A stretch of 64,000 bases of DNA from Pyronema omphalodes (lineage: Eukaryota > Ascomycota > Pezizomycetes > Pezizales > Pyronemataceae). Numbering within the stretch: position 1 is the stretch's first letter; each line of letters opens with the position of its first letter. Shown here piece by piece: positions 27,673 to 58,794 of the stretch. The stretch is taken from the NCBI GenBank assembly GCA_024516155.1, contig JAJJXM010000014.1, forward strand, positions 434,001 to 498,000. Direction: 5' to 3'. The notes beneath the pieces were generated by a model. It did no database searches, was not told the origin of the DNA, and saw only the letters and a list, made by a program, of their open reading frames with translations. The position numbers and the translations under genes are program-made.

Positions 27673-28052
27673 ATGTCCTCAGTGTGCGTTACCCTTCCTA
27701 TCCCTCAACCCAAACTGTAGACTGACAATTATGGAACAGACCCTCTAAGAACGAAACGCCATCGCCATCGTCGTTGTCATCGATACCGTCACCGTCATCG
27801 CAAGCACAACCGCGACCGCAACTGCAACTGCAACTGCAGTCGCCGGAACAAGAAGAACCAGTGGAACAAGAAGAACCACTGGAACAAAAAGAGCCACTGG
27901 AGCAAGAAGAACCACCGGCACAAGAAAACCCGCCTGCGCGTGGTCCCAACCTTACTGGATGGATGGAAAGGGTATATGTGCCTGGAGATGGGGCGTTGAC
28001 GAACGGAAGAGATTTTGCCATCCACAAGGTGGATAAGCTTTTTCCCTCGTAG
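27673..28052 (+). CDS. GW-family small protein 1
   Basis: Exon 1 is only 11 nt (27673-27683); the intron is 27684-27739 (GTGCGT...CTGAC...ACAG, 56 nt) and exon 2 is 27740-28052, giving 107 residues. The splice restores MSSVPSKNETPS in frame with the long exon, which otherwise has no ATG. The middle is disordered: Ser/Pro-rich, then Gln-Leu repeats, then five EQEEP/EQKEP-type pentapeptides. The last 33 residues hold the conserved core GWMERVYVPGDG and end IHKVDKLFPS. No signal peptide or membrane segment is seen. Function unknown; the family is defined by comparison with five other genes in this window. Confidence 0.72.
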
Positions 28053-29497
28053 AGGGTGTTGCAATATCTGGTATAGTTTAAAACGTGTGAAAGTCTAAGG
28101 TGTGTGACAGTATAAGATTATTATTATTGAATCATACGCTGACCGAAGCCCAGAAGGCTCATGCAGGACTAAGATAGTATAAGATATTTGATAGCATAAG
28201 GTATGGTACAGGATAAGCTATGGGATCGGATGGTATACGTATTGGACAGTATAACATATCGGATAGCATAAGGTATGGAGTAGCATAAGGTATGGAGTAG
28301 CATAAGGTATGGAGTAGCATAAGGTATGGAATAGAATAAGGTATGGAAAAGCATAAGGTAATATGGGATACCATGAGTGCCGTCGATATTGGTAGTATCT
28401 CAAAGATACTAACACTGGATACACGAATTATGCAGTCTGTGTTATGCATTCAGGTTCGATGTATTTATTTGGGCGTTTTGCGGATCGATTTTTTTTGTTA
28501 TATTTTGATACGGGAATATTGGTAATATTAAGAATAGATAACGTTGTTGTTTTGTAATACGGGAATATGGGTCATACTGTTTTTCTTTGTGTATTAGGAG
28601 GTAAATAATAATTTATTGGTGGGACTGGCATATATACGAACCCCTGAGACCATTGATATCGTATATACATGTTTCCCGCTACCCGTGAACAATGTAACCT
28701 TGGTGCTGCGCAAATTACTGGCTGCTGTATTTAATGTGCTCGTGCCAACACACCTCAAAAGCCAATAATTGATTTTGAAACAACTTCGCCTAGTAAGAAG
28801 TCTTGGACACTGCAGAGGCGAGGGTATCCCGTATCATAAGCGATATGTTAACACCCGTGAGACCAACGGGCTGGTCAGATGCGGTTTCTGATACCGTGCG
28901 GGATGTGTGCAACGGAAGGTGGTAGAACAAGTTGGTATGAGACGTATGGTATCCGATATTGTGCTACATTATTAAATCAAACGTCATGGCTTCAGCACAA
29001 TAAGCTTGCTTTTTATTGAGGATTAGTTGGATCCAATCAAACAAAAGACTGTCCTGCTAATACTGTAACAAAATCTGAATTCATAGGGTACCATCCGAGT
29101 CGGTGTTCTTGAGGCTGTAATTTTGCGATTGTCGGCGGTGCTGTGGTGTTTCGGGATTTGAAGATGAATCGTGGCTTTTTAGAAGGCTGGTTTGTGTAGC
29201 TTGACGTGTTTTCGTACATTTTTTCAATTTGAGGAAGCTTCGTCAGAGTTATAGTGGATGATGGTACTATTGGAAAAACTGATGCACCAACTCGTGGTGC
29301 GTAAAAACGCCCGAATATATGCACCCCCACCATTTTCTCGTAAATAAGCATTAAGAACGAGGATTGTTTTCAATTGAGTACCATAGTTATCCCCGGACTC
29401 CATTTGAACGTCAACAAAGGGATACATGTCATGAATATTCCATGGCCGTGGTGAGTAAATTAGTTGATGATGGCAATATTTTTAGTTGCCGTCGAGC
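28053..29497. other. Intergenic, 1.4 kb
   Basis: Contains the 17-bp minisatellite at 28190-28360. I see no supported gene in the rest. Confidence 0.5.
28190..28360. repeat. Minisatellite, 17-bp unit
   Basis: Tandem copies of ATAAGGTATGGAGTAGC, almost perfect at 28265-28325 and degenerate on both sides. Confidence 0.88.
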
Positions 29498-29578
29498 GGT
29501 CTATTAGCTCAGTTGGTTAGAGCGTGGTGCTAATATCTTGTCAACGCCAAGGTCACAGGTTCGAGCCTATATGGATCA
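29498..29578 (+). pseudogene. tRNA-Ile(AAT) with 8-nt intron, degenerate T-arm
   Basis: The acceptor and D-arm match the intact copy at 47121-47206. The anticodon loop is CTAATA, then intron TCTTGTCA after position 37, then ACGCC. The T-arm lacks one base relative to the intact gene and its stem pairs poorly (CACAGG...CCTAT), and the acceptor stem has two G-T pairs. I therefore call it a likely pseudogene, although transcription from its A and B boxes is still possible. Confidence 0.75.
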
Positions 29579-30903
29579 TTCTTTTGCTCTGATTTTGCTG
29601 GCTCGAGAAGAACAATTCATGGGCGTGTGTATGTGAGTATAAGATTTTTGCTAAGCGTAGATGCAGTACAACCCATACTGATAAGCAATCGTGGCAGACT
29701 TTTGACGAATTTTGCGGTACAATGTACAGTTACTGTATTCAAAATCTTTAGTGATCCCTGCAGACTATTTATGCCATTTGGCAGGCACACTGAAGCTCGA
29801 ATGTGCCTGAGTTATATTCCGAGACGCGGATTGAAAGTTCAACTGTAGATTCGCCGTGCAAAAAAACACACGCACAGAAATGTGGATCTTTGGAATTTCT
29901 GCTGTGTTCTGGACCACTACTAATGTAACCAGGCACAACACCCGGATAAGTGGTGAAGCCATTTCATCTTCCAATAACAGTAAGTGAGTTACCCGTGTTG
30001 TCGGAATAAGATTATGAATTCGGATTATGATCGCCGCTAAATTGGTAACTCATCACTAGCCGAGGCTAGAGTGCGCTCGCGCACTTCTTAACAACATTGG
30101 ATCCATTCAGCGGCTCGTTATTTTCTACTTCGATGATGGCGTAATCGAGTAAAATCGTTGAAAATTTTGTATTCCAAAAAGAAAGAAAAAACTGCCGACG
30201 AATTCATGTTTCCGGGTATAAAAGTATATTTATTAATCTTTCGCATGTGAATGCGATGTGTATAGTATGAAGCGACAATTGCCCAACTCATAATGGCCCT
30301 GTTTGAGGTGCACATTTCCAGGCCAGAAACTTCCAAGATCTCAGAATTGTGTAGTTTTTTTGATTGCGCGCCATGATTCCTTCATGGGTCATCTGAGGTG
30401 CAATTTTATGTGTAGGGGAGCTGCATTGCTTAATGTTGCGGCCAATAACCAATGTGATTGCAAGATGAGGCGATGCGAAATCTGTAGCCATGCCGAGTCC
30501 ATTGCAAAGGGGAGCGATTACTGCATATTGCCTAATTTTCATACATCTGCAGCAGTTCATCACATCCCTGCACAGTTATATGCAATGCTAAATATCCGAA
30601 ACCAAAGGCAGAGGACCTATAATTTAAACTGGAAAATGTCAGCCAATGGAATAAAATTTTCACCCAGGAGGAATAAAAATAATTCCTAACTTTCCCGGTT
30701 TCTTCAGTTTGTAGAAAATTGTTTCGGAATGTTCTGGACGATTTGGAAGCATTTATGCAGGTACAGGTTCTACCTAGACAATGGAGATTAATGGGCTCTG
30801 CGAGAAATTTCTAATTTTTGGCCTCCTTTCTTAATTGAGAATGCATGTCCTAGATGGGCAGAACTAAACCTCCTTTTGCTTGCCATTGCAGGCATTCGTG
30901 GTC
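29579..30903. other. Intergenic, 1.3 kb
   Basis: A 128-codon open stretch at 30303-30689 with clustered cysteines (CDCKMRRCEIC) has no ATG near its start and no known domain. I do not call it a gene. Confidence 0.45.
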
Positions 30904-30909
30904 TATAAA
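30904..30909 (+). promoter_or_regulatory. TATA box of GW-family gene 2
   Basis: TATAAA followed by a C/T-rich leader without any ATG up to the start at 31260. Confidence 0.6.
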
Positions 30910-31084
30910 GCGCAAATTCAATCTGTCCTTCCCACAATATCGAACTGATAGACTTCTCGCCGGAGAATCCTCCTTTATAGCCTCGCCTTGTCAGCTGCGT
31001 TATATCCCGAGTCTGATACCTTCGTCTTTGCTGTGTCTGCGAGAATCAAAGCGCACTCCTCATCAAAACCCACCATCCTTCGAA

Positions 31085-31215
31085 GTCATCTCTCCAGCGG
31101 TTGAACCGCCGCTGTCTTTTGACACCATTTATCTCTCCAGTAGTTGGAACGTCACCGTTCTTTGACGTCATTCATCTTTCTAGTACTTGGACCATCGCCG
31201 TTTTTCAGTACGGTT
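31085..31215 (+). repeat. Three imperfect leader repeats, ~45-50 bp
   Basis: The motif TCATCTCTCCAG-x-GGTTGAACC...CCGCTGTCTTTTGAC recurs three times, each beginning near ATCTxTCxAG and ending CCGTT/TCTTT. It lies in the transcribed leader of gene 2. Confidence 0.6.
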
Positions 31216-31259
31216 TTTCTCTCCACAGAACTAGATATAAACCCCCAGGTACGATCACT

Positions 31260-31748
31260 ATGGACCAGAATTCATCCTTAGGTTTTGCTCCTCATTCGGG
31301 TCAACCCCCAAATGCTGCATCGCATCGCCTTTCGGGTCCATGCATTCCTGGTTGGTTGGGACGGGTTCCTTATGTTGGCTTCGGTAACAATAATAACGTC
31401 TCTGGTGTTTTGGGCGAAGTTGATGCTGCCTTTAACACTGCCACCACTCCCGTCTCTGGTTTAAACGCCCCTGGAAATATTTTGGAGTCGATTAGGACCG
31501 ATAAAGAGCCACCAAATACCCCAAAGGCCACCGCAAAGCCCGCAAAGCCCGCAAAGCCCGCAAAGCCCGCGAAGCCCGTCTCAAATAATAATGCCACCTC
31601 CACCGACCATATTTCCGATTCTAATGCTACCGGAAAAGTTTCAGGGTCCACCATGGGCGATACAGAGTCACCAAACTCCCGAAATGTCTCCAAAGTCCAT
31701 CTCCAAGGAGATGGACTACAGCGCGCCGCCACCCGCACCCAAGAATAA
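31260..31748 (+). CDS. GW-family small protein 2
   Basis: A single-exon, 162-residue protein. The start is the first ATG after the TATA box. Residues 1-27 are disordered, then the core IPGWLGRVPYVGFG (about 31-44) is followed by VSGVLGEVDAAF, matching the helix of the other members. The C-terminal hundred residues are disordered: five AKP repeats (AKPAKPAKPAKPAKP) and Ser/Asn/Thr-rich stretches. Here the low-complexity tail follows the core, whereas in gene 1 it precedes it, so the core is the conserved unit. No targeting signal is visible; function unknown. Confidence 0.72.
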   Translation: MDQNSSLGFAPHSGQPPNAASHRLSGPCIPGWLGRVPYVGFGNNNNVSGVLGEVDAAFNTATTPVSGLNAPGNILESIRTDKEPPNTPKATAKPAKPAKPAKPAKPVSNNNATSTDHISDSNATGKVSGSTMGDTESPNSRNVSKVHLQGDGLQRAATRTQE

Positions 31749-32953
31749 ATGTTTGATGGTTGAATAGACTAGAATTGGTTCAAAAATCTCATGTGCTGCC
31801 TGAAGGAAAGCATGGCTCGGCTAGGAATACCATGCGGTATATGTGGAATTGTTGGGGCTTTCCTTCGCTTGTGGTTTCATGAGCTGTTTCCTTATTTGTG
31901 CTTTTAATTTTCATTTAATATTTAATCTCGTTTGAATATCTCTGCGCTATGTAATCCAGTCGTTACTCGTTTTATGGTCCTTGTGCTCGTGTATATGCTG
32001 TGTAACTTGCCACGTCACCGTGGTCGGGGGTAGGGTCCTTCTCTGTTTTCGCGAAAGATACAACCTACTATTCCTCATAGCATTTGCAGCACATTCCCAC
32101 ACAATATCCCCATTCGATCCTCGGTTTCATCACCAGCGAGACGCGTTCCACATCGACCGTTATCGGGCTACTCGCTGCGACAAGACCGACAGAACGACAG
32201 TAGATTCTCCAACGACCACACCCTCGCCAGGTGCTTAGACCTTCTCGCCCTCCTCAAAATTGCTGCCATTTCAAAGTCCCTGTACATAAGCCAGTCAGGC
32301 ATAAGCATACACCCTCCAATAACGCCTCCTGTTTTATCGGCGGTTGTCGTGTGGTAGTATTGGTCAATTCGTAATTAAAGGCGTGTCATAGGGGATATTC
32401 AACTGCAGGAACATGCTGATATGCATTGGATATGATGCCAGCCCTGGCCAGAATACCGAAGATCATCTCTATTCCATCGACATCGTCGCCATCTAGACCA
32501 TAGAAATAAAGATTCAATCTCGTATTGTTTCAGTCCGGAACAGACACTAAGACTACTCGCGCTTGACGCGTATTTTGAATTGTCGTTTTAGCTGCAGGAA
32601 TGATGGCGTTTTTCGTCGCGCGTCGAAACTTGAATGCTGGGTTCATTCTCAATTGACTGTCCTTATTTAGGATCCACAACCGATAACATGGCATGTGACT
32701 ATAATATCAGTAGGCTCACCATGTCCTCTCATCGTATCGTTTGAATTGGTGGCTAATAAAGGTCTCATCCGCAGACAGATTCCGCACCAAGTTCCTTGGC
32801 AACCGCATGCCCACTATTCCTTTCTAGCTCGAATCGAATGTATTTAAATTGTTGAGGAAGGTGCTAATTGATGGTCTATGCCGATTCGAGTATGAGCAGT
32901 CCTCCCATTGCAGAGAATCACAGTATTGCACTCGTTTCTCTCCAAGGGTAAAG
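31749..32953. other. Intergenic, 1.2 kb
   Basis: Contains an ATG-poor stretch (32040-32412) leading to a 27-residue ORF at 32413-32496 whose GYDASPGQ faintly resembles the GW-family core. Otherwise nothing is recognised. Confidence 0.4.
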
Positions 32954-33039
32954 GTATGTCGGTTTCTTGCCTCCAAGCATCCCAACTCTCTATTACATTT
33001 CATTCAGAGAGTACCATACTAACTTTTCTCCTGTTATAG
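32954..33039 (+). other. Leader intron of GW-family gene 3
   Basis: GTATGT donor, TACTAAC branch site and TTATAG acceptor, 86 nt, 49 nt before the chosen ATG. The exon upstream carries a 19-codon ORF (from ATG at 32892, MSSPPIAENH...) that stops before or out of frame with the main ORF, so it is treated as an upstream ORF. Confidence 0.65.
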
Positions 33040-33087
33040 GGTATTTGTCGCCGGTTATCGTCCATCATTATTTTCGATCCATCCCAA

Positions 33088-33312
33088 ATGCCTCAACAAG
33101 GAAGCGAGCCTGCCAGTGGACCTAGTGTTCCGGGCTGGATAGAGACAGTTACTGTTCATGGTGTCGGTAGGAGGAGTACTACACTAGTAGAAATCAGTGC
33201 TATTGAGAAAGCTTTTTCCAACGAAGAAAAGCCAAATGCCCCTGCCCCTACAGGAGATCATCGTATGTATCATCTCCAAGATTGTCCGTTGCGTCTTCTG
33301 ATAATGAGATAG
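33088..33312 (+). CDS. GW-family small protein 3
   Basis: The ORF has 74 codons if unspliced. A GTATGT donor at 33263, TGATAAT branch and ATAG acceptor at 33312 define a 50-nt intron; splicing would end the protein just after GDH with a stop in the next codon, giving about 60 residues. Gene 4 has a donor at the same place after its DDHD. The core is SVPGWIETVTVHGVGRR followed by LVEISAIEKAF. The N-terminus is short and polar (MPQQGSEPASGP). No targeting signal; function unknown. Confidence 0.68.
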   Translation: MPQQGSEPASGPSVPGWIETVTVHGVGRRSTTLVEISAIEKAFSNEEKPNAPAPTGDHRMYHLQDCPLRLLIMR

Positions 33313-33826
33313 AATAATCCTTCTCCATTGCGCTATATCCTATTGACTGGTTCTTGAAAGTCTCTCGACTACTATATTTAGAGCGAGGGAAGTGGTATTG
33401 TCGTTACCAGATACTGTGTTTCGGGACCTCAAAGGCTTTCTATGACGAGTGCTGATCTATGATTCGGGATCATATTACCTAATTATTTTTCCTTTTTCTT
33501 TCTTTGGCTATTTGGTGTAACAATCTACAAGTTTCTCGGTCAGCCAGGCTGAGTAATCGATGGGTAATATAACCTACTTTGATACTTTGTAAGAACTTTG
33601 GTCCACGCGTTTGAACAGGAACCGAGGAAACCAACCCCTGGAAGTCAATGACAATCTGTACTCATGCCAGCTTTCGCTCTTAATAACGGTGTCGAGTGCC
33701 CCTTTTCTATCGTTCTTCGTATGTCTCGGACAGACGGTTCCTTGCAGCGATGAAGGGACATAGTCGTAAGTGACCACTGTTATATCACCGATATGTTTGC
33801 TGATTTGTAAATAGCTGCCTCGTGCG
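33313..33826. other. Intergenic, ~0.5 kb
   Basis: No feature recognised; this is the 3' flank of gene 3. Confidence 0.5.
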
Positions 33827-34576
33827 TCAAACATGCATATTTCGTAACCGCCCGAATGAAATGCATAAATTTGCCAAGCCAAAGTAGGAGTAGGTTACGC
33901 TACACTCAACGCCGGTTAGAGCCGTCTCCTTATCCTCTGACGTAGCGACCACTTCTTCCGCCGACAACGCAGAACGCGACTTGATCCAAGATAGTTCTCT
34001 TTCTCTGGTATCTTGAGACTTTGCTTTGTGTGTACCAGTTGCGTGCTTCGCTTGATGTTCACTGCTAATACTGGGTGCAGAAAAATCTTGCTCGTCATAA
34101 GGGCGACCCCACGCCAACTTCAAATGACTCCGTCGCGTGGCCGCCTCGCACAGAGTTTCGCCATATTGAACGCCGAATGCTTCGAGCTTGGGTTTTGAAC
34201 GTTCGGAATATCTTGTTTCCCCAGCGGCGCTTTCCAGTACCCACCACTCGATGGTTCGAGTTTTATTACAGTCTAGTTTAGCCTGAGTCTGGGATGCCGC
34301 TACGTCTTCTGTAATCGCACGCTCTGCAAACGGCGAGGCGTTTTCTATCTCATGCAACGCAGAAGTCAACAGGCGGTTTTTGTCGGTCTGCATAGTTGCC
34401 AATTCTATTGATCGGTGAAGGATTTCGATACCGCTTCTGGATATCCAACTGTCGTCGGTGAATACTGTGGGAACGATAAGCCAGAGCCGCCGTATCGTGA
34501 TTCGTATATCCGTGTATTTTTTCGGGTTAGCGTCCCGCAGTTTTCTGTGTCGAAACGGCCAATTAATAATGCACAA
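33827..34576 (-). CDS. Hypothetical protein, possibly an internal exon
   Basis: A 249-codon open frame, too long to be likely by chance in this AT-moderate sequence. The first ATG in it is at 34393 (188 residues from there). An acceptor-like CCCACAG near 34470 suggests a spliced 5' exon. The protein is hydrophilic and Glu/Lys-rich towards the C-terminus (SQDTRERELSWIKSRSALS), with no recognised domain, signal or membrane segment. It could be the remains of a gene or a real one with introns I cannot place. Confidence 0.4.
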   Translation of the reverse strand: MCIINWPFRHRKLRDANPKKYTDIRITIRRLWLIVPTVFTDDSWISRSGIEILHRSIELATMQTDKNRLLTSALHEIENASPFAERAITEDVAASQTQAKLDCNKTRTIEWWVLESAAGETRYSERSKPKLEAFGVQYGETLCEAATRRSHLKLAWGRPYDEQDFSAPSISSEHQAKHATGTHKAKSQDTRERELSWIKSRSALSAEEVVATSEDKETALTGVECSVTYSYFGLANLCISFGRLRNMHV

Positions 34577-37221
34577 AAGTGTATCAAAGAGAGCGGGGCC
34601 TTAGGTACTTAAGTTTTTTTCCACCTTCTTATTAGTTTTTTGTTAATAACCCAAGGAAATAAATTACATGAGGGCCAGGAGCTGCTCGGGGAAACTTGAC
34701 CACAACCGAAGCAATTATCCGAGGGTGTACGTACCCAGTCCTTGCATGAGACAATGGACCGATACACAGCTGTTAAATATCCACGCATACTTCACTTTCA
34801 GGCTCTCGTATAATGCTACGCTCTTCATTGGGATTCATTGGGATTCATTGGGATCCCCGTGAAGTGCACCTCGATAGTCTTAGCCAATGACAGTCCTGCA
34901 AGTTATCATGAGCAGGATATTGAATCAACTAACTCGGCTGATTTGGGGACATTATAACCGTAATTTTCCGACCGCCGGATATTAATCCAGATATTCCACC
35001 CCCATGGTAATTATTCTTGCCGTCGAGGTCGCGTTCATTTGCGCGTGGACTACGGTAAGAGGGGTGGCGAAAAGAGCGTCCGGATTCTTCGATGTGATCC
35101 GCCCAAAATGGGATTTATCGCAACAATGCGCAGCGTGGCAAATGATGTGCAATTTTCCTTTCACCTCCTTACAGGGCTTTAACACCGACTATCAGTAAGT
35201 TAGCTCTGCCAGGTCCCGATGAATTACCTCTCATTAGAATTTTAGGGAATAGGATATTACGCACATCGCCACTTTCATAAATTTCGAGCGGTGTATTCCC
35301 AGGACCTTTTCACCAAGTTGGCTTGCTATATGAGTGATTAGAATACTCAGTTCAATCACTGAAGGGTTAAAGCTGTCATTCCTTTTGATCTGTACTGTTA
35401 GCCTGGGTAAATGTGTTAGGTATCAGACAGGTCGAAGAATAAGGTAGACATTTACGCAATTGGTTTCGTATTGACACTGGAATTTCGGAATTTCTGGTGT
35501 TTGGATAAGGACTATATAGAGTACAGTCATAGAGGATGCCTAAATATCAGGCTGTGCACCGAGCCTATTCAGCTCGCACGAAGTTTGGTAGGGTATCCAC
35601 TGAAGTCATTTGGGGGCCCCATCTGCAAAACGCTGATAAGGTTCGAGTTGCCTGCACACTCTCGTTGTCAACTGCCAGATCGAAAATTAAGTTTCAATAT
35701 TAGCTTAAATTCTGATTGGTATATTGGATATTTCAGAAGTCAAATTGCATGGGAAGGGGATGTTTACCTCTGTTCTCTTCAGAAACTGGGTACAAATGTT
35801 GGTGCCCGTACTTTTGAGTCAGAGAACAGTGGTTGGGTTCTTAATGCAATATGGGGTGTGGGAAAAATCTCGCTGTAGTTGGGAATCCAGGGGGGAAAGG
35901 GAGATGGCTGTAGGGGCAAGTGTGAGAGGATATTCTGCAGGGGCGAAGGGTGGAGGTGCATGGACTTCGGTGCCCCAGCCCTCATGATTCCCATGGCAAC
36001 TTCCTCTAGCAGTGGTCGACAGTCTCATCTGAATTCTGTTCAGGCGAGCTGCTTTGGTCTGTGAGAGTGGTATGTAGCGAGGAACTGCCCGGATGGTGGT
36101 TTTGTCTAACTTGGGGGGGGGGGGGGGTAATCCATAGTTGCAGTCCATTCATAAAGTGGTCTATTACTCCGTCTCGTTGCCAGATCCCCTTAGATTTACC
36201 TTGTATTCAAGTACATCATTCTACACCCTTGGCACATTGGCTAATGAATATCACAAGTACTGATATGAATTGTCCGGATTTATTCATTTATTTATGCTGG
36301 TGATACCGATTTATTATTCCTTTTTGGACCATTGTAATCCAGAGATGTATCACAACACGAACACAGATCAAACACCCAAATTTTTATTTCAACCTATCAT
36401 ATCGGTTTGGCCAACTCTCATCGTTGGGTGCCACAAAAGTTCTATCAATTCAGCGACCAGGATTGTCTGAGTCGCCGCTGTGTTAGTCTTTGCTCACTTT
36501 TGATCGCCTCTCCATATATGAACGATGATTCCAACCTTTCGTTTATTTGAGAACAAGATTTGGCCATATTGTGAATCATAACATATCAGCTGCCGTCAGA
36601 AGGTTTGATATTGAAATTAATCTACGTACCAATGGGCGATTTCCCCTCGAGATGACGGCCTTTCTTCCTTGTAATCGAAATGTTACACAACAGTGCGTGT
36701 CACAACATTCGTTGACATCTCAGGAAGACTACCCAATTTGCATGTCTCAAAACAGCACGAGTACGCCAACTTTTGCAGGGCATCGGGTACTTGGCCGCAA
36801 AAATATGTGACAGCTCGGATATAGTGTGATCAATCGAGCACATTTGATGGTAAGCATGTTTAACCAAACGCGTCCAGGGTTGCATTAAACTGCACCTTTC
36901 TTGACGTCGCGCTTGATACATATGTATCCAAAAGCAATGGCCAGTCAATTCAATTTTTTCTACGCGATGGTCGAAGGATATTAGAAGCCAACACAAAAGA
37001 TACACGTTGTACATAGTTCATGTCCCGCTCGCAGTGCATATAATATGCATCTGATAGGAGAACCCCTGTACAACAAGCTGCGGCATGCATGGGACAGGTT
37101 ACGTCTGAAAGGGGTTTCACAAATACTGTTGGACTACTTTCAATCCGTTGGAAATACAATCTTCTTTATATCAATGGGAGTTCAAATTCGCCGCCTCAAC
37201 CAACTCCATAGGGTTGCAGCG
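34577..37221. other. Intergenic, 2.6 kb
   Basis: Includes a threefold ATTGGGATTC microrepeat (34828-34856) and a poly-G run at 36112-36127. ORFs of 60-135 codons occur but none shows domain or promoter evidence. Confidence 0.45.
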
Positions 37222-37271
37222 TACTCGTGCCTAAAGGTGGTGGCTAGCGCCACCACCTTTAGGCACGAGTA
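37222..37271. repeat. 50-bp palindromic repeat, copy A
   Basis: Perfect 23-bp inverted arms (TACTCGTGCCTAAAGG...) around a 4-nt centre TAGC. Related copies are at 47837 and 55498. Confidence 0.95.
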
Positions 37272-41427: not shown

Positions 41428-41686
41428 TTATTTTCCCTGTTGATTGGCAGATTGGCCAGAGGGAAAGAGACGCTCCGCATCCTGCAACACTTTCTTAACA
41501 TGGGCGTCGGAATGTCCGGCCCCTGGAGTGTAAACTGTCTGGTTGTAACCAGGAATGCTGACTTTGGCTTGACCGGTGGCTGGGAGCTGGCCGTAGGTGT
41601 TGGTGGAAGAACTTTAGGGTTGAGGTGTTAGTTGACTTTTGTAAATCTGATTGAGGGGAAATTTTGACTAACCCAGAGGAAGGCAT
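41428..41686 (-). CDS. GW-family small protein 6 (spliced)
   Basis: Exon 1 is 14 nt (41686-41673). The intron is 41672-41612 (GTTAGT, branch ACTAAC, end TAAAG; 61 nt). Exon 2 is 41611-41428. The protein has 65 residues and starts MPSSGSSTNTYGQL. The core is SIPGYNQTVYTPGAGHS, then VKKVLQDAERLFPSG, with Tyr in place of the usual Trp. Without splicing the start codon reads into an unrelated 63-codon frame, which is why simple ORF calling misses this gene. A TATATAAA at 41844-41851 and a 157-nt ATG-free leader precede it. This is the most compact member and best shows the minimal domain. Function unknown. Confidence 0.75.
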
Positions 41687-47120: not shown

Positions 47121-47206
47121 TGATCCATGCAGGGGTCGAACCTGCGACCTTGGCGTTAACTACTTGCGTATTAGCACCACGCTCTAACCAACTGAGCTAA
47201 TAGACC
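47121..47206 (-). tRNA. tRNA-Ile(AAT) with 12-nt intron
   Basis: All arms pair: acceptor GGTCTAT/ATGGATC with discriminator A; D-arm GCTC...GAGC; anticodon stem TGGTG/CGCCA with loop CTAATAA; T-arm GCAGG TTCGACC CCTGC. A 12-nt intron CGCAAGTAGTTA sits at the standard position one base 3' of the anticodon. It decodes ATT/ATC after A34-to-inosine editing. Confidence 0.93.
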
Positions 47207-47884: not shown

Positions 47885-49837
47885 AGAGCTTAAGCAGATA
47901 TTATTGTCAGAAATCAGGCTTTCTTCTAACCTGAAGTCGTAACAGTACTAGTCTCGGGGTTTGTCAAATACATATCATGACCGCGTCTAAGTATGCAAAT
48001 CTGCAAGTATTTTTTTTTTTTTTTTTTTTTTTTTTGAAAATAAGGCTTTGCAGATGCAGCTAGGTACAGTCAATTAAAGCAAGGAACAAACGGCCAAATT
48101 CCATTAAATATCCTGATCTGGCATGACAGAAGACGGTATGCACCGCCGATGATCTTCCATAATAAATTACGTGGAGCGAAACGGTGAAATTGTAAGTATG
48201 GTTTCAAGACCTTAATTATTTTCGAATATCCATGTCAGTGAGTGTCACCAACAAAATTTGTCGGACGGTTTCAACGAAAACATACAATACACATCTGAGC
48301 CATAGTTAGTACACAAAGGTCCCAGCCGAGGCGTAGACGATGAGGCCCAGATTTGACGTAGGAGTTGACAGTTTATCTTCTGTGCTTGCAAAGTCTTTGC
48401 GAAAATTTGCCATGTTATTCAATTTTTTAACTTTATTGAAATCGGAGCAGCTTTATATGGTCTGAGTCCAATGGTCAATTCATAATTTCTTTCTAAGATA
48501 ACCAAGAAAAATTCAAGAAATGAAACGTGACTTATTTGTAGGCTTTGAAATGGGTATGTTACACCACATACAGAGATGTTTGGAATTTTATCGCTACTTG
48601 TACCAGCGTAAGGATCCTCTGCTTTCCGGCGTAAAGATTCTCTGCTCCACCAGTCATCGCCACAGCCAGAACATACCCAAGGACCAGCCATGCTTCGCAT
48701 CGTTTTTCAGAGAAGGTCCCGGAAACACAATGCAAAATCATCCAATTTCCCACCATGCGCTCATCAGGGGGGTTTGAATGACGATAGTAATAGTCATTAG
48801 CAGGCGGGGAGGGGAAGCCAGATTGGGGGAGACAAGCAGAACGCCAAGACAGCAACCGTCAACGATCGGCGAGGAGAAGCAGTTCAGTAACACCGGCCCT
48901 ACATCGATATGCCTCGCTCCTCAGGTCCCCATATGGATATAATAGGGCTGGCATACGCTATAATCTCCAGAGAAATCAAGGATGAGCCGTAAACATGAAA
49001 CCATACGGCCTATCGGACTCCGTGAAGCACATCCACTATACGAAAACTCTGCCATATCCTCGAAGCTCCAAACTTTGCACCGCGTCACGGTGCTCTATGG
49101 CGTCTCATATGGCCCATCATTCAAGAACATCTGGCTAAAGCACCTTTTATTAACTAACTTCCAGTTACTCGTGTACCAGACGTCCGTTCGTTATTACTGA
49201 AGATCCTATTCACTATAGTCAGTTGGACCCAGGCATTGCCCTCTACTCGAAGAAAAGTTTTTATCGATGTCGTTCTGGTTGTGTCCATGGCTGTCATTAT
49301 TACAAAAAACTAGCATTCAAAGGCGAAAGACATAACGAATGCCAGTAATTTCGAACTCCAGCCTAACCCTTGGGTCATCAGACACAGAAGCCCAATAATA
49401 GGACCAAGAAACGATTATCCTTCCATTTCCAAACTATAGTAATGGCTCCAGAATAGGTTGTGTAGAGCCGAAACTGATATGCCATTTGTTGAAACATCGA
49501 ATGATGACCGGGGACCACTCAAACTCCGGGAATATTCAACAGAGGAAATAATAGCAAGAATATTATGGACCCGATTTGGAACGTTTTTCTTCTTTTTGAG
49601 GACCGTGTTACAACAGGAGAAGCATCACCACCGCCACAGCCTGCGCCTCTTTAGAAAACCAGGTCACAGCACGGAACAGAAGTGGAAATATACGTTGTCC
49701 AAAAGGGCCTGGTATTGGGTGGCAGGTCTTGTTGTAATCTGGAACTGCTGTTAATTTGCCGAATCAACCATCCCTTCGTAATCATGCCTGCAGTGTTACA
49801 CAAATATTTGAGGCTCCATCCTCCCCCCCCCCCCCCC
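47885..49837. other. Intergenic, 2 kb
   Basis: Has a poly-T run of about 27 nt (48009-48035) and a poly-C run at 49822-49836. No supported gene. Confidence 0.5.
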
Positions 49838-50154
49838 TCTTCAATCTCTGAGAATCGCCTAACAACGACTGAACTTACCAGCATCGCAAACCAAACGCCG
49901 CTTTCGTTTCCCCCATTAGCTCGATTTCCCAAGCGGTCCAATATTCACAGCAAACGATACGCACCATCAACAGGGATGAGGGCAGGAAAGTAAGCGAAGG
50001 CGCGGCGGTCTTGGGCGGCTGCGATGAGGAGTTCAACAGCCAGCACCTCATTCCGGGAATCGACTCATCAGAGATATCGTCGGTACGCCGTCTCCCGCCG
50101 TTTCTGGTCAAGGTTATTGGAGAGAAGGTCAAGTTTTGAGGCCCTGTGAACCTC
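49838..50154 (-). pseudogene. Decayed coding segment, unknown protein
   Basis: One minus-strand frame reads as plausible protein for about 105 codons: KLDLLSNNLDQKRRETAYR, then EVLAVELLIAAAQDRRAF, then ILDRLGNRANGG. It is broken by TGA TGA (50065-50070) and TGA (49945-49947). All three could be CGA codons with one C-to-T change. GC is locally higher than in the flanks. I do not recognise the protein. Confidence 0.4.
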
Positions 50155-50434
50155 AGGTTATGCGGAAGCGTGACCCGATCGAGAGAGGCGGAGGGGCGGG
50201 AGAGGGAGGAGAAATAGTGAAGAAAGACCGTGGTATGGACTTGCGAGTGAAGGCGCACATTTGGAATAAAACCAAATATGGAAGTCTGGTATTGGGTTTA
50301 GCTCGGATTTGTACGTTGATCCTCACTTTCACTTAGCTTCTCGCCCACACCCTCCACTCCTAAGAACCTCCCCATAGCCACACTCCCTTTGATCTCCCTC
50401 AGTCTCTAATAATCTGGTTAGCAAGAAGCCGACT

Positions 50435-50440
50435 TATAAG
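50435..50440 (+). promoter_or_regulatory. TATA box of GW-family gene 4
   Basis: TATAAG followed by about 490 nt of leader, C/T-rich in its first half and without a single ATG up to 50929. Confidence 0.55.
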
Positions 50441-50773
50441 CAACTGCACTTCGTCCTCGACATATCTTCTATCGGTATCCTGCTACTTCCCGTGGCTGCA
50501 TCTGCCACCATCCTTCCTCATTACACAGCCCTGCTCCTCTGCTCTCTGCTACTCTCTTTACGGTTCCAAAATCTCCAAAACGGCCCCAACTTTTGTCGCA
50601 GTATTTTCTCCGGACACTTCGCTTCTCGTTTGTAGCAGCAGCAAATCCTTCGGACCCTGTTCTTCTTTCAGGACCTCTTACCATCATCAACAGAGATACG
50701 ACTCGCACCACAACTTTTCTCCCATTTCATATCGCCATCGTATCTTGTCGTATCGAAACGAGTGACAATATTT

Positions 50774-51227
50774 GAAGGCGGTCCTTCTCCCTCAGCTCCA
50801 GAGTGCGTCAACCGCGGAACCTCAAGCCATCACGTTCCTGGTAACAACTGGTCAAACAAAGCCTTCAGTCTTGGTTTTACCAAATATCAGACGCTTCCCG
50901 TGGCTACCAAACACCGGTGCCTGAAAAAATGACCTCGGACAAAATGAATAGTCCGAAGACACAAGATGTGTAAGTTGTGTGCTGTAGAACGTGAAAGATA
51001 AAACTGACTGTTCCCAGTACTGGAGACATGACCACCCTTACGGAGGCGTCACGGGTTACGGCATCTGAAGGCGATCCTTCTCCCTCAACCCAAATGACAG
51101 ACGCCTCCCGTGGCCATCAAACACCTGAGCCCGAAAACGGAGCCAGAGGAAAAATGGATAATAAAACGACACGAGATGTGTAAGTTGTTTACTGTAGGAC
51201 TTGAATGATAAAACTGACTGTTTGCAG
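50774..51227 (+). repeat. Duplicated exon-intron unit in gene 4
   Basis: GAAGGCG-x-TCCTTCTCCCTCA, CAGACGC-T/C-TCCCGTGGC, CCAAACACC and the exon end ACxAGATGT/GTAAGTTG occur twice, at 50774-51017 and 51067-51227. The two 48-nt introns are near-identical (both contain ATAAAACTGACTGTT). Unit 1 has about 83 extra bases that look like a further intron or an insertion. Confidence 0.85.
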
Positions 51228-51432
51228 ACGGAATTCGGCCATTCGAGGCCCCTCCGTTAATGGATGGCTACAGACGGTCACCACCCCGGGACGACATCGG
51301 CGTTCCATTGTCGCAGAAGTGCTGAATAATTTCGACGCATCATTTCCTGATGATCATGACTGTAAGACCCCCCAATATTGGTGCACGTATATTGAATTTA
51401 CTAATGTTTCGGTAGCAAAACTTTTAGAATGA
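50929..51432 (+). CDS. GW-family small protein 4, duplicated exons
   Basis: Exons 50929-50969, 51018-51179 and 51228-51361, with introns of 48, 48 and probably 54 nt (51362-51415: GTAAGA, TACTAAT, GGTAG), then 51416-51432. The first two introns are phase 2 and the joined frame is open: MTSDKMNSPKTQDVT..., then MTDASRGHQTPEPE..., then the core SVNGWLQTVTTPGRHRRS and EVLNNFDASFPDDHD. The last intron is a multiple of three, so retention also stays in frame; spliced, the protein ends SKLLE. The start is the first ATG after a 490-nt ATG-free leader. Exons 1 and 2 are a tandem duplicate. No targeting signal; function unknown. Confidence 0.72.
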
Positions 51433-52526
51433 CGTGTTTTTCGGATTGCGAGCATGGTAGTTGGATGGTCCGAGACGAAAAACAAGAATGGTATTGTGGG
51501 CAGAAGGACGATATATCCAAATTGTTTTAATGGTTTGATAGCTTGAACGTGGTTGTATACTTCGGTGATAATTCGATGGCTTGGTTGGTATTTTTTTTAA
51601 TGTATTATCATGTGTTCTAAGATTCCTAATAGTTAAGTGTACTTTCTAGAATAAATTGATAAAGTACTTACTTGAAGAACTCCCTGGAAAAGTAGATCGC
51701 CCAAGATTGCGGAAAGTGTCAGTATATACTCTTTTTTTTGTTGGTACCTGACGCGAAGCCAGTTGATATAACTCCTTGTGACAGTCCTTAAATTCTCTCA
51801 TTCGGTCGGCAGTGGAAACATATACACCAACATCCATCCAGTCAAATGACCCCTATAGAGCCTCTACCCCCCAAAGCGGTGAAAGACGCACTCAGTATGT
51901 AGCAAACGAGATTTGCATGTTTGAACATGACTTGACCCCGAACATCTCAAATTACCGGCATATGAAGCTTCTTCCACGAGCCGGTTTTCGTGGGCTGTAA
52001 TACCAAGGCGAAAGTTCTGTTACAAGGAACCCCACCTCACAGCGCCGCAAGCGTTGTTATCCATGCAGGCATCCCCTCAATAACGAAACTGCAGCTTTAT
52101 ATGGCGACACATCGCGATTGATACTGAGTATCCTTATGATATCCCCTCATAATATAATCGCTCACTAACGATGGTTTCTGTGCAGCGGTTTGCTACGACA
52201 TGTGCATCCATACACCATTCGCCGTTCCAGTACCCCACGGGTGTCGCACCCCGTACCATTGGCCATAGGCTCCAAAAATAATGGTTCCCTATTTTCCCAC
52301 GCCGGCCGATATAGATCACTGAAGAGCTCGCATCGGATACAAGCTATCCGATTAATCTTCAGTCAATGAGGCCACATTTGAAACATAGTAAGTATTCGAG
52401 ATTGATCATTCGTGTTAACGGCGTACGGTGGTTCCGAGACGTTGTATCACCATAGCGGAAGGAACGGTTCGGTAGGAATGTCGAAGCGCGGTGGATTTAA
52501 GCGGTCGGCAGGATGAGTGCATCTTG
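51433..52526. other. Flank of gene 4 with weak GW-family relics
   Basis: Two short matches to the GW core, at 51463-51530 (+) and 51798-51849 (-), lie here; see findings. No intact gene. Confidence 0.35.
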
Positions 52527-52620
52527 CACGGCTATCCAGAAACTGTGATTACGCCGAGCACGGTTAGTCGCCGTACATCCCGTGGTAGACGAACTTCTAT
52601 AATACGGCATTCGAGCATGT
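52527..52620 (+). pseudogene. Likely relic of a GW-family gene
   Basis: The frame reads HGYPETVITPSTVSRRTS, matching the core pattern G-W/Y-x-x-T-V-x-T-P, with Ser for the Gly of PG. There is no in-frame ATG upstream; the nearest ATG (52478) is in another frame, so the gene is broken or has an unseen intron. It lies 1.1 kb beyond gene 4 on the same strand, suggesting an old tandem copy. Confidence 0.4.
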
Positions 52621-52727
52621 TGGGTCTCCGAATTGATGATGTGGTGATGTGTCGAGCTGGTGGCGCTGTCTGTTCAGATGGGGATTGCGCGGTGGAGCTC
52701 CAAAAACCATCTTCCATGATGAACTAG

Positions 52728-55497
52728 CTCTGTTGAGTTAACTCCCTTGAGGTCCCGTAGTGTAAACGCTAATTGATTAGAGGAAAAGCCAAAGTGGATT
52801 TATGGGGAAAGATATCAGAAAATTGACTGCACTGAGCCTTGAAGACTTTTTGTTTTCTAAATTTGCGTCGAATACCCCCGATATTAAGTTACTTTGTCCA
52901 AGAATGATTTTTTCTGCGGTTAACATATTGGCCGCTAGCCGTGGATATCCGCCACCAAACGTTACTCATTGCGCCACCAGGCCGCAGCGCAAAATCCACT
53001 TATTAACTCATCCGTCTAACATAAGGCATTACATTGTTGTGTGCAATTATTATCAAAATAGAACGATTCTGTGCACAATCTAACGCCGAATATCTCCGTG
53101 GCCATAATGGCAAAAGATTCCGGGCAACTTATTCTAGTCGATGTTTGATCAAGTAGGGGTTTAATCAACTTCATTGTGACATAATCAAATAAAAAGGTGC
53201 CAGGTAATGCGCAGATGATGCTAATTTATTGATCAGTCATTTATAAACATAAGTTCGAAAATTCGTCCGATTGTCTTACCTCTACGACTTGAATGCTGTA
53301 GATTTTAAGGCTCAGAATGGGAGCCAGGGTTTCTGGATCAACACTTGATCGATATTATTTAAGAACTGGCGTCCACTTCTCCAGAACAATGCACCAAAGT
53401 TGTACTAAGTAACGGTGTTAGGAGAACCGGTGAACTGGCTAAGACAGCCGTCCCGCGTGTCACGTATCCGCCGTGCATCTACCCGTCGATTGTCGATTAA
53501 ATCTTCCGGGCTTGCCAAAGTAAATCAACTTCGAAGTCTTTAACGGTAACTTATAAGTCCGCTCAGAAGGATGTAAGTAAAGAAGGCTGTAGATACCAGC
53601 TGTGTTTGTGGGAAGTGCGCGCGTATAAGTAACACCCCAGGTAGCTGCATTGCAAATGTTGTGTCGTTCGCTTAGGTAGGTTTCACCCGAATTTTTACTC
53701 GGGGTCGCTGGCTAAAACTGTTGGTCGTCAGGATATCAGCTCCTCGGGTCGCATATCGTTGGTGGAAGGTGCAGCATTATCGATGAGTCCGAGGCATACA
53801 GCAGTATCTATACGATAGATGTGAGGCAGCCTGTATTACTAAGAGGTAGAAGGGCGTTCATTGATCAGCCCTTACAATTCCAAATAGCGGATGACCGGCT
53901 TCGTGTATGTTCTCTCAAATACATGCAGCATCTCGATTTAGATATCTGTACGTTAATGTCCCACGATCATTTGTCAGGAAACGGGCATGAGATCCACTGG
54001 ATTTTAACGAGGTATGTACGGACAAGTTTCGTTATTCCTTGTTAGTCCGGTAAAAATTTATACTGTGAGGGAACGCAGGTGGGATGAGCAATTTCTCCCA
54101 CATATGTAGTCAATAATCTCCTCATTCAAATGGAACTTCCTTTGTGGATATGCGCTAATCAAATAGACTACGATCATGTACCTGGCAATTTTTGAAGCCG
54201 TACGTGCTATCCCACATAGAAGGCTAGAGGATTGTTCCAAGTGTACTCTCTGAAATTATCACCACCTATGATTGGTATGAATCTCCCTAGAATCCTTGTT
54301 GTTTTCTCATGTATTTTTGTTTTGGAAATTGGCGAGCATTATTGGAATTGAGGGAAAATGTGCGAATGGCTTTTGAGTCACCATAACGGCTCGCGGAGAT
54401 CCGAGTGGCTTATGAAGAATGGCTGGTCCTTGGAGGGCTGAAGTTACCTGATGTATCTACGAATGCTTGGGCAGAAAGTTACAGGGTTTGAAGACTTTCT
54501 AGAATGTACTGCAACCCTCTCATCGACCGTTAACGTCATTGTACGTGAATAGAAATTATCCGCATTATTATTTTGCACAGTTGTACTGCGTTGCTGTTCC
54601 CTACTGTCATCAGAAGTGTCAGTTGTAGATATCAGATGAGGTCTGAAACTCAGCGTTTGTAAGGATCGAGATGCAGTGCGTCACTATGTATGGGGCTTGC
54701 GAGCTCTGCGGAGAATTAACATGACTGAAACTCTAGCATCCAGTTCGGAACTTTTATGTATCAGCTTCGAATTCGATGTTTCATACATACATGGTCATCA
54801 CGCTAAACTCTGGCTTGGCTGTTTGCATCCTCTCTTTAAAATCCATCCGACCGGCACTGAGCTTAACTCAACAACCAGTATTTACGCGACATCTATGTAC
54901 TCGGAGTAAACGCAACGGTTGACAATTTCAATCTCACAATGCGACCTCGGTCTCTAACATTGAACTATTTTTATCGAAGGATGGTTGACAGATATCTCCA
55001 AAACTTTTCTGGAGTGGCCGCGAGGGTGGCGATCGTACACATTCATCACACACAAGCACTGCCCCTGCGCACAACATTCTGAGGACTATTCCGCGATTTT
55101 CCACCGGCATACAGCATTCATGTCCATCCCAGAATGTTTCTTGGCGATGGTTGCAGTTATATATATCAGTACTCTAGAAAGATATTGACATGGCACCCGA
55201 TATATACGATGAACCAACGGCGACTAAACAGACTTGGGCGAGCTCTTATCAGCTTTCCAACTACGGATCACCGATAATATGAGCCGTAGATGGTGCTTAG
55301 ATATACATATCTGGTACCTTGTTAGCCATGAAAGTATTTAGATACAAAATTGATGAATTATTTGTCAAGCTCACAATGCATCGCATAAAGATCCTTGTCT
55401 ATGGCTGAGTTTCCATTCACCGGCGAGCTGCCACGCATGTTCTGCATCTGTATATATTTTTCGCTATAAAATTTTCCGATGTGCACATTATATACAG
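52728..55497. other. Intergenic, 2.8 kb
   Basis: No supported gene or notable repeat. Confidence 0.5.
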
Positions 55498-55547
55498 TAC
55501 TCGTGCCTAAAGGTGGTGGCTAGCGCCACCACCTTTAGGCACGAATA
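55498..55547. repeat. 50-bp palindromic repeat, copy C
   Basis: Same as copy A except for one base near the right end (ACGAATA for ACGAGTA). Confidence 0.95.
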
Positions 55548-57026
55548 GCAAAAAACTTTATATAGAAGGACTGAATTTGCATAGAACTTTTCCATCAGTA
55601 AGAATTTTGAACCTAGAACGTGTGGGATGCATTCCTCGACCCACGTCGCAGACGTGGTACGAATTCGCCGCCGATGAAACGCAGTTGAATCTAGTGAAAG
55701 CTGGGGGCTAATAATCCATTATAGCACTAACCCGATATGGTAATCCGAGTAACTCTAATAGACAGATGCCGGAACTATCATGTACTTGTAAATATGTAAC
55801 TTCGTCAGAACTTGACCATTGTTACATAGATGTTTTAGATGTCATCACCGTTAATAAAGCTTCGGTGTTACTTGATGATATGTGCTATGCTTGACCACAG
55901 GTTACTTTTAATACTATGAGTATGTGCTTAAGGACATATGTAAAAAGTACGCAGTTTCTTCCACAATAAAATGTGGTCTATTAGGGTTCCACAATTGTAA
56001 CTCTTGCAGCTTTCAGGCAGTACAAGAACTTCAAAGCTTTAAAACGCCGACAGCTCGAACCGGCGACCACGGAATCAGGACATATATACAGAGCCAATAA
56101 CTGAAAGAAGGAAGCCACCGATAGGTTCCATGCAGTCGAATTTTGGATGTCTTCCTGGTTGCTTGAGGAATTCGGTCATTTGTATGTTCATTGGCATATT
56201 AAAAGATTCACTATTTGACCGGGAAAGAAATTGGGTAAAACGAAGCAGGGGGCCATTACATATGCGTTTCGTAAAAACTGCTATTTCTCTTGAGTCTATT
56301 TGACCGGTCGACTAGAAAGTTTGTGCTGCTGAAATTCTAAGACACATGCGTACCTCTCTTGACTCGCGGATGTCAGATGATCCGGTCTAATGTGAGTCAC
56401 CCGCAATGGAAACGTATCGAAGATATTTTTTAAATAGCCCCGCAAATTTAAGACGATACAAGTATGGATTCGAGATCATATGGGTGCCGGTTTGGTTTCA
56501 GTGCCCCTAACCTGGGGTTGAAGAGATGCTTGGGGCAAAACCCGACATGATTGCCTCCAGCCCTTAACCTTAGATCACTGATGATTTTGTGTAGGGCAGA
56601 CTAAAATTTAGTGCGGAAGGCCCAGATTTATGCTAACGGATGGCGTTTACGTAGCTAGCTTTGAAACTCGGTTTCCATCCTTTACTTTTGACATCCACCT
56701 ACATCCTCCACCAACACGCCTCGCATCTAAAAAAGGTATTTCATCACGACAAACGAAATCGGTATCTGTTTTCAAGCACTCGGAGATCTATATCAACGAT
56801 AAAGCCGTTTCTAGCCTAAGATCAGGATATTGTAGAAAAGAGAGCCTAGGATTACTGCTTATGTCCATACTCCACCTACTCTTCTCAGACCCGACTTTGG
56901 ATCTGGTGCCGTTTCGACAATGATACAAAGGCGAATGTAAGCCACTGTTTATGAAACTCTCATTAAGCGAAACATGGGCCGTGCTGATTAGTTACAGGAC
57001 TTCTTTCCAAAATCCATACTGGAGAC
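55548..57026. other. Intergenic, 1.5 kb
   Basis: No supported gene. A B-box-like GGTTCGAGC on the minus strand near 56065 does not fold into a tRNA. Confidence 0.45.
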
Positions 57027-57129
57027 CATAAAAGCAGCCACAGGCCAAATACAACAATTCACCCCAACTCTTCGCACTCAAAACCTCTATCACTCATACT
57101 TTGACTAGACTCGGTATCTCAACCAGCGA

Positions 57130-57276
57130 ATGGCCACTATACGATTGATAGCATGCAATGTTGTATCAGCTGTTTTCACATGCAATATCAACATCCGCTA
57201 CTCCTGTTACTTACGGATCAATCTTCCGTTTCTCCCCATCCCTCTGCATACTATCTCCAGACTTATAGTTATCTAG
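57130..57276 (+). CDS. Possible 48-residue protein with hydrophobic N-terminus
   Basis: A CATAAAAG TATA-like box at 57027 and about 95 nt of ATG-free leader precede ATG 57130. The peptide starts MATIRLIACNVVSAVFTC, which could be a signal peptide, and ends with another hydrophobic stretch. No family recognised; it may be spurious or spliced. Confidence 0.22.
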   Translation: MATIRLIACNVVSAVFTCNINIRYSCYLRINLPFLPIPLHTISRLIVI

Positions 57277-58492
57277 CCATTTCCGGATATCATAATAGGA
57301 AGTTTATGAACCAGAAGCGATACCGACTCTTCCAACTTGAACCACCATCATTAAAAACCCCCAAAGCACAGGAACAGCCTAAACTCTACGTACAAATTTG
57401 ATCCAAAGATCATAATGCAATACTCTTAGGAGCCACACAAAGCAAATATATTTACAAGCAGAAGGATTTTGCAAATAGTTGCAGATTGGGGGGGGGGGGG
57501 GGGGGGGGTTGCAGTAATAGGGACGGAGTATCTCGATCGAAAATGGTAGTTTCAGGTTCCAGTGTGGCAATGTCGACCTCAAGCCACTTTCGGGCCTCCG
57601 CCCCCGATACCGAATTTAGTGGTTGTGCCTAGACCACTTCGAATGACTAAAGCTCTTCCCGACCGCATGGGTTTGGAGACCGCATTGGCCTTCAGGACAT
57701 TAGCTGATTCTTCCGCTGTGCGCTCTCAATTATCAGTAATTTCTTCGGCTATGGCAATAAAGGAATGCTTTCGGCATATCTTGGTAATCTGGGTCGATTT
57801 ATAAACATCAGACGCGCTGTGAAAACAGCATGCGAGACGTATAACCGGTTTGCAATTTATCCTGCCTCAATCTTTATTTATGAAAACTGAAAAGTATGAT
57901 AAAGACATAGCAGGGCTCAAGTTACGATATTCTCAGAACCTTGTGGAACCAAAAGGCTGAATTTGGAATACAGAAAATCAGGCAACTTTAACGGAACAAC
58001 GAGCGATACGGTAAATCACGATTATTATATTAGTTTCCCATGGTCTGCATACGATTACATTTCGAAAGCAAGGAGACACGACGCGTTTTGCAAGGCGTGT
58101 CGATAGACACCGGTGATTCGCGTGTGTTTCACCAATTCAGACGGACAGGCAATCCTCCTGCATTGGGAGGAATTCTTTCCGAACTTTGATCGGTTCCTGA
58201 TGTTCAGCCTTATTGCGTAACGCCACTCAAGCATCGAGTACGGCAAAATTCTCCACCATGACGTCATATCTAAACCAGAACTCCGGCTACAAAAAGGGGA
58301 TAAAGTGCAAATAAATCTATCCACAAGACCATCCCTTTACAACTTTATGATCCAGCAAAGATAAAATAAATTAAGACGGAAATAACATGGATATTTCCAC
58401 GATATCTTATTCAATGTTAGCGAACTGTCTCAATGCCAGACCAAGGGTCAATATACATACAGCAGAAGGTATACCGGGAGTTCCAACATCTG
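57277..58492. other. Intergenic, 1.2 kb
   Basis: Contains an uninterrupted poly-G tract of about 20 nt (57488-57508). No supported gene. Confidence 0.5.
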
Positions 58493-58794
58493 TCATTTCG
58501 ACCCGATCTGTGATGATGCGGCTGTCTTATCGGAGGGCTTTCCTTTGGAGGCTTGATTTGGTTTGACCGGAGAGTCCACCTGCTTTATGGTGTTCCCAGC
58601 CGTTTCTCCAAAGTGATGATCAGCAGCGGCTATGTCTTGGTCGCGGGAGCTTTCCACCTGACCATGACCTGGGGTATAAACACCGCTGCGCCACTCATCG
58701 ATACTTTTATTTGGAGCCTGTACACTCTGGGAATACATCGATGGAGTATGAGGGATGGCTTTGGCGGATGGCGAGGCAGCAAGCTTTTTGGTTA
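58493..58794 (-). CDS. GW-family small protein 5 (5' exon unresolved)
   Basis: The last exon encodes about 100 residues after a TTTCAG acceptor at 58800-58795. The reading frame needs one base from an upstream exon; one candidate starts ATGCTTCTGC near 58910 with a GTATGC donor, but this is not secure. An internal Met (about residue 25, MYSQSV) could also serve. The core is NKSIDEWRSGVYTPGHGQ then QDIAAADHHF, with Glu before the Trp. The tail is Lys/Ser/Pro-rich and disordered. Function unknown. Confidence 0.6.

Follow-up and report, generated by a model that had tools for sequence, protein, structure and literature searches.

A local cluster of small, mostly disordered proteins sharing a putative docking core in Pyronema omphalodes

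Tandemly duplicated, fast-diverging families of small proteins are familiar from fungi, where the usual cases are secreted and cysteine-rich. Partner-docking motifs of disordered proteins are familiar as well; these combine an extended segment with an amphipathic helix and do not make up any single family. Here we analyse six small genes in a 64,000-nucleotide (nt) window of the Pyronema omphalodes genome (bases 434001-498000 of the 959,751-base contig C46; assembly of 60.8 Mb), together with a seventh on contig C163. These genes resemble the tandem families in their local clustering, conserved core and variable tails, and differ from them in that a signal peptide is not evident and cysteine is nearly absent. 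With the docking motifs they share the shape of the conservation, the surrounding disorder and a predicted helix; no Pfam family or solved structure was found to be related to the core in sequence, and its binding is putative.

The orphan genes of Pyronema confluens offer another comparison. The passages on orphan genes in PMC3778014 report 5,737 predicted orphans, with the shortest median length among the compared groups, and more than 20% of them raised during sexual development. The orphans and the present family are alike in fungal class, in their short proteins and in the lack of recognised relatives, but the orphan set is defined by lacking relatives whereas the present family is defined by a shared motif.

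A conserved core in seven genes

An earlier note, made from the letters of the window, had described six genes on both strands that encode short proteins with one shared block. Six-frame translation located all six cores where they had been placed, four on the plus strand and two on the minus strand (Table 1). In 6/6 cores we found W/Y-x3-V-x2-P/V/H-G at this spacing and, further on, acidic-x-x-F, as had been described. A regular expression covering the full motif matched six times in the window and not once in 50 dinucleotide shuffles of it, the control that the note had suggested; since the expression was composed with the six cores already known, this is a check rather than an unbiased test.

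Profiles trained on five cores, with the sixth held out and each core held out in turn, always gave the held-out core as the top match beyond the five training sequences (6/6). The E-values were 1.5e-9 for gene 4, 5.1e-8 for gene 3, 1.4e-7 for gene 1, 1.6e-7 for gene 6, 0.0013 for gene 5 and 0.0018 for gene 2, and the top E-value of non-members was never below 0.96. A profile of all six window cores (A1) scored its own training members at 65.9-74.3 bits, against 16.9 bits for the top match in the 50 shuffled windows. The shared block covers 34-35 residues of gene models that are 59-162 residues long, and the share of bulky hydrophobic or aromatic residues is 20-37% in the cores versus 4-15% in the flanks. 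The leave-one-out test, the alignment and the composition bear out the earlier description of a fixed core with unrelated flanks, which are unalignable and poor in hydrophobic residues. Judged by these sequence comparisons, the six window genes and the gene on C163 are a real paralogous family of uncharacterised function.

The search for further genomic members, which the note had also proposed, led to one beyond the window. This seventh member (C163:375142) was reached by a DNA pattern that fixes GW...V..PG only, and it was outside the training set of the profile. Its second half, unconstrained by the pattern, fits the profile at 37.2 bits; the E-value is 3e-10 over the 93 kb searched and would be about 2e-7 over the whole genome. 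A start codon, a plausible phase-1 last intron and, at -204, a TATA-like site are present in the gene, whose frame is open without the intron too. Used as a single query against the whole genome, its protein retrieved itself, gene 3 (8.3e-5), gene 4 (2.4e-4) and gene 1 (0.43) and nothing else; gene 4 in turn retrieved the C163 gene and gene 3. A first consensus probe retrieved six members, missing gene 5, and a second retrieved four (genes 6, 1, 4 and 5), missing genes 2 and 3 and the C163 gene; neither gave a non-family match. As the probes derive from the members, the retrieval of members proves little, and the point is that nothing else was retrieved. In all the whole-genome protein searches (genes 6, 5, 1, 2 and 4, the C163 gene and the two probes) the matches at E 10 belonged to the family.

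Within their limits, the pattern searches of the DNA did not show dispersal across the genome. The pattern for GP.[x]..GW...V had 15 genome matches versus 3 for its control: genes 1-4 account for four of these and two repeat strings (on C8, C52 and C206) for six, and the other five (L018-L021, L024) were judged by translation to lie outside the family. For GW...V..PG there were 114 matches versus 21; among the 100 listed, most are variants of the two repeat strings, and genes 1 and 4 are also present. The listed strings were read through and eight further places were translated (C158 and C171 were left out), and among these the C163 gene was the sole member, while L025, L026, L027, L028, L030, L037 and C124 were non-members. 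VYTPGxG gave 8 matches versus 6, namely genes 5 and 6, five copies of one repeat string, and a site on C151 that was ruled out as an alternative frame within a Rit1-like gene. The Rit1-like protein has its nearest match in Pyronema domesticum (59% identity over 81% of the query), followed by Wilcoxina and other Pezizomycetes. No further member was detected in the 10 kb on each side of the window, where no match was better than E 12. Since the protein searches score the best candidates only, and the pattern searches are likewise non-exhaustive, the count is a lower bound: there are at least seven members, six in a 31-kb stretch and one on C163.

The view that the genes belong to no recognised family agrees with the database comparisons. 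With the six window frames Pfam gave two matches at E up to 10, neither of which passed its cut-off: Bflower scored 14.5 bits against a cut-off of 25, and Ketoacyl-synt_C 13.9 bits against 20.8. The seven members of the alignment A2 had one Pfam match, of 14.7 bits, under the cut-off. Against the PDB the A1 profile found nothing at E 10. The sole match of the A2 profile there, RNA-binding protein 8A (CG8781), is at chance level (E 1.2, two pieces in swapped order), and so is the best match of the C163 protein alone, upstream stimulatory factor (E 0.5). In a protein database that includes Pyronema, Wilcoxina, Morchella and Tuber proteins, pre-screened by shared five-residue words, gene 6 had no candidate and A2 had 131, none of them at E 10. 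This screen is nearly blind here, because 0/21 pairs of members share three five-residue words, and absence from that database therefore says little about the lineage specificity that the note had suggested. Topic searches of the literature returned nothing naming the family; the motif letters themselves were not searched, hence no absence from print is claimed.

Selection on the core and age of the cluster

Pairwise identity of the seven aligned cores by codon position was 0.46 / 0.50 / 0.34 for positions 1/2/3, compared with 0.285 / 0.249 / 0.270 when codons were shuffled within genes (standard deviation 0.016; 1000 shuffles); the observed value for position 3 equals the highest among the 1000 shuffles. 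Conservation is strong at positions 1 and 2 and far weaker at position 3, so by its codon pattern the core is coding sequence under purifying selection.

The earlier note had regarded the paralogues as dispersed and the family as expanding, and neither description was supported. Six of the 7 detected members lie within 31 kb, and the non-exhaustive genome searches added the C163 gene only. Core protein identity between members is 21-47%. The same codon is used at 68/211 identical-residue pairs (W and M excluded), where random synonymous dealing gives 66.3 (standard deviation 6.4) and 396/1000 random deals reach 68, so that synonymous codon choice is fully randomised. A blastn comparison of the seven 2-kb neighbourhoods revealed DNA in common only where those of genes 2 and 3 overlap, the other matches being 13-19 bases long with E >= 0.28. 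Neither near-identical copies nor shared flanking DNA, the marks of a recent expansion, were thus found. Taken together, the diverged cores, the randomised codons and the unshared flanks fit better with an old local cluster than with a recent burst, although in a single genome fast divergence by another route would look alike.

Possible role of the core

The explanation that we favour, and to which we would give an even chance, is that at least seven small, mostly disordered proteins of this pezizomycete fungus share a bipartite docking motif, and that six of their genes form an old local cluster. The core would be such a motif rather than a self-standing domain. Its first piece may be an extended segment bounded by proline and glycine, G-P-S-V-x-G-W-x2-T-V-x2-P-G, which would place the W, the V and the turn, and its second piece, after a short variable loop, could be an amphipathic helix that ends acidic-x-x-F/L. 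The segment and the helix would fold upon a partner, and the cores of all members would bind one common partner surface. The tails, unconstrained and differing by member, might set the timing, the place or a second partner. What the analysis shows is the family itself, coding constraint on its core, the clustering, disorder-like flanks and a predicted helix; protein binding by the core, a partner common to all members and tails that carry the differences are inferred from the conservation, the disorder and the helix.

The proteins appear to be small, non-secreted and mostly disordered. The maximum mean Kyte-Doolittle value over any 19-residue stretch is 0.68, so there is no evident membrane segment, and a hydropathy scan of the seven models detected no evident signal peptide (top 10-residue mean near the N terminus 0.93). 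Each of the seven gene models has 0 or 1 cysteine, which rules out paired cysteines. The core tryptophan is present in 6/7 proteins and is the sole tryptophan of each of those six. AlphaFold2, applied to two members with the six window sequences in the alignment, predicted a single 12-14-residue helix at the expected place, in the core's second half, with a predicted local distance difference test (pLDDT) score by ten-residue block of 61 and 66 at its start and 77 and 81 in its second half; gene 4 had an extra four-residue helix at the GW piece. The structure modelling suggested in the earlier note yielded a helix of moderate confidence, with no strands in either model and no confident fold, which agrees with an extended segment and a helix that would fold on a partner.

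It is possible, if doubtful, that the core is instead a very small folded domain or a homo-oligomerisation unit, for example one with intermolecular strand pairing and a packing helix. Some 35 conserved residues including W, V, G and F would suffice for this, a helix is indeed predicted, and an oligomer had been proposed in the earlier note; nevertheless the two single-chain models, computed from the six-row alignment, contain no strands and no confident tertiary contacts (predicted template modelling score, pTM, 0.26-0.27). Secreted effectors or peptide precursors, either of the ribosomally synthesised and post-translationally modified (RiPP-like) type or processed by Kex2, would be variable outside a conserved block, and small, fast-diverging genes that adjoin young mobile elements would suit them. 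This explanation is improbable: none of the seven models has a strongly hydrophobic N-terminal stretch in the hydropathy scan or more than one cysteine, a scan of 20 neighbouring open frames detected no processing-enzyme domain, and the conservation lies in the middle or at the end of the protein and not in a leader.

Argonaute hooks, that is disordered GW/WG proteins which bind the RNA-silencing protein, carry several such dipeptides, repeated and loosely placed. It is very improbable that the present proteins are hooks with a single GW. The dipeptide occurs once in 5/7 models (genes 1-4 and the C163 gene), each time with the sole tryptophan of a mostly disordered protein, but WG occurs in 0/7, the tryptophan is held in a fixed register with V, PG and the helix, and gene 5 has EW while gene 6 has GY and no W. 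Least credible of all is a chance resemblance between unrelated reading frames. The flanks are unrelated and of low complexity, as it would predict; however, the recovery of 6/6 held-out cores, the finding of a seventh member by half of the motif, the codon-position bias and the purely familial matches of the whole-genome protein searches contradict it, and the scores of genes 1, 3, 4 and 6 and of the C163 gene when outside the training set already speak against it.

Several observations weigh against the docking motif that we favour, and some of them would also suit chance. The held-out scores of gene 2 (14.8 bits) and gene 5 (15.3 bits) are under the top shuffle score of 16.9 bits, so these two are singly the weakest members and lean on the remaining evidence; gene 2 has V for P, and gene 5 lacks GP and has E for G. 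Genes 6, 5, 1 and 2 (4/7), used as single queries, each retrieved themselves alone. Gene ends are uncertain for genes 2, 4 and 5 and for the C163 gene. The structure models are of low confidence (mean pLDDT 60-63, with the pTM values given above) and derive from six sequences only, so that a small or oligomeric domain stays compatible with them, and the binding role is read from the shape of the conservation alone.

A wider form of the docking explanation is that the motif GPSVxGWxxTVxxPG, followed by a helix ending acidic-x-x-F, is an undescribed one by which clustered, otherwise unrelated disordered proteins of pezizomycete fungi compete for one conserved partner or signal to it differently. 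We consider this unlikely; if it were true, a large number of the seeming orphans in these fungi would turn out to belong to a single diverged family. Short orphan genes whose origin is obscure number in the thousands in cup fungi, to go by the Pyronema confluens count in the passages of PMC3778014 cited above. The present cluster suggests that some orphans are old, selected families which ordinary similarity searches miss because the genes are short, contain micro-exons and have diverged to saturation, and the motif is a concrete handle for finding more of them. A role in fruiting-body development would be a guess by analogy with the Pyronema orphan genes: the rise of P. confluens orphans in sexual development, as reported in those passages, makes such a role conceivable, although it does not show it.

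Gene structures and genomic surroundings

Table 1. Gene models and cores in the window. Positions are those of the 64,000-nt stretch; all splice sites were chosen by eye from the sequence. Core site is the position found by six-frame translation.
Feature	Position	Strand	Core site	Structure or evidence
Gene 1	27673..28052	+		exon 1 27673-27683 (11 nt), intron 27684-27739 (phase 2, 56 nt), exon 2 27740-28052 incl. stop; 107 aa, core residues 72-106
Core of gene 1	27942..28046	+	27957	six-frame translation, profile, alignment
Gene 2	31260..31748	+		single open frame, 162 aa; core residues 26-59; long low-complexity tail with PAK repeats
Core of gene 2	31335..31436	+	31350	six-frame translation, profile, alignment
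Gene 3	33088..33317	+		exon 33088-33262, 50-nt intron 33263-33312 (phase 1), last exon 33313-33317 (Q + stop); 59 aa
Core of gene 3	33118..33219	+	33133	six-frame translation, profile, alignment
Gene 4	50929..51432	+		possible exon A 50929-50969, exon B 51018-51179, core exon 51228-51361, last exon 51416-51432 (SKLLE stop)
Core of gene 4	51247..51348	+	51262	six-frame translation, profile, alignment
Gene 5	58493..58738	-		open frame from ATG 58738, 81 aa; frame open to 58873, upstream exon possible
Core of gene 5	58607..58711	-	58696	six-frame translation, profile, alignment
Gene 6	41428..41686	-		exon 1 41686-41673 (14 nt), intron 41672-41612 (phase 2, 61 nt), exon 2 41611-41428 incl. stop; 65 aa
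Core of gene 6	41461..41565	-	41550	six-frame translation, profile, alignment

The very short first exons proposed earlier for genes 1 and 6 fit the sequence: the core exons of both lack an ATG ahead of the core, and the short exons would supply the start. The frame of gene 1 is open from 27726, and its intron has the donor GTGCGT, a branch-like CTGAC and AG; that of gene 6 has GTTAGT, CTAAC and AG. A phase-2 intron upstream of the core recurs in genes 1, 4 and 6. The phase-1 intron right before the stop recurs in genes 3 and 4 and the C163 gene, and the last exons of these three contribute one, five and no residues, respectively. Genes 3 and 4 had been said to share a donor after D-H, which is loosely right: in both a phase-1 donor lies a short way past the core, following D-H in gene 3 and D-H-D in gene 4, and the C163 gene has one too. 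The intron of gene 3 has the donor GTATGT, a branch-like CTGAT and AG, this acceptor being one among alternatives. Gene 4 would have two introns of 48 nt (phase 2) and one of 54 nt (phase 1); its 5' end is uncertain, the shortest model starting at 51028 (100 aa), and an exon with its 48-nt intron is tandemly duplicated (50941-51017 / 51151-51227, 77 bases, 82% identical). A shared promoter motif was sought in the seven 600-bp upstream stretches, and no 9-mer was common to four or more of them.

A 125-bp tandem duplication (27360-27609, 92% identical) ends 64 bases ahead of the start codon of gene 1, and a short repeat just downstream of that gene (28117-28180) recurs in at least 39 other places on many contigs, with 85-95% identity among the best 40 matches. 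A 257-codon open frame on the strand opposite to gene 3 (33827-34600, -), located immediately downstream of that gene, has no Pfam match at E 1. Rfam detected two transfer RNA genes (29498-29578, +; 47121-47206, -), of which ARAGORN found the second only, with no anticodon. The 20 other open frames scanned in the cluster region, a scan that leaves out many shorter frames, gave no match at the Pfam cut-off.

A tandem pair of Helitron-like copies lies to the left of the cluster (Helitron_like_N 145 bits, PIF1 61 and 77 bits). The two copies agree without a mismatch over 4,929 bases (window 6290-11218 versus 17739-22667) and over 6,491 bases (C46 424820-431310 versus window 11217-17707), which points either to a tandem duplication of very recent date or to an artefact of assembly. 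Each contains a 468-codon open frame on the opposite strand (window 20255-21661, -, and 8806-10212, -), and that of the second copy has no Pfam match at E 0.001. The first copy is interrupted by an 8.98-kb stretch (C46 about 431311 to window 6289) that ends on both sides in identical direct repeats of 1,411 bp, spaced by 7.5 kb, and has a gag-like frame (window 2584-4806, -) with Ty3_capsid and Retrotrans_gag (22.3 bits) both just under the cut-off; it looks like a recently inserted long terminal repeat element. To the right, about 14 kb past gene 5, a protein-kinase gene was located (L056 8794-9963, C46 about 506.8-508.0 kb; Pkinase 145.5 bits). By eye it appears CDC28/CDK1-like, and it is a useful anchor for gene-order comparison.

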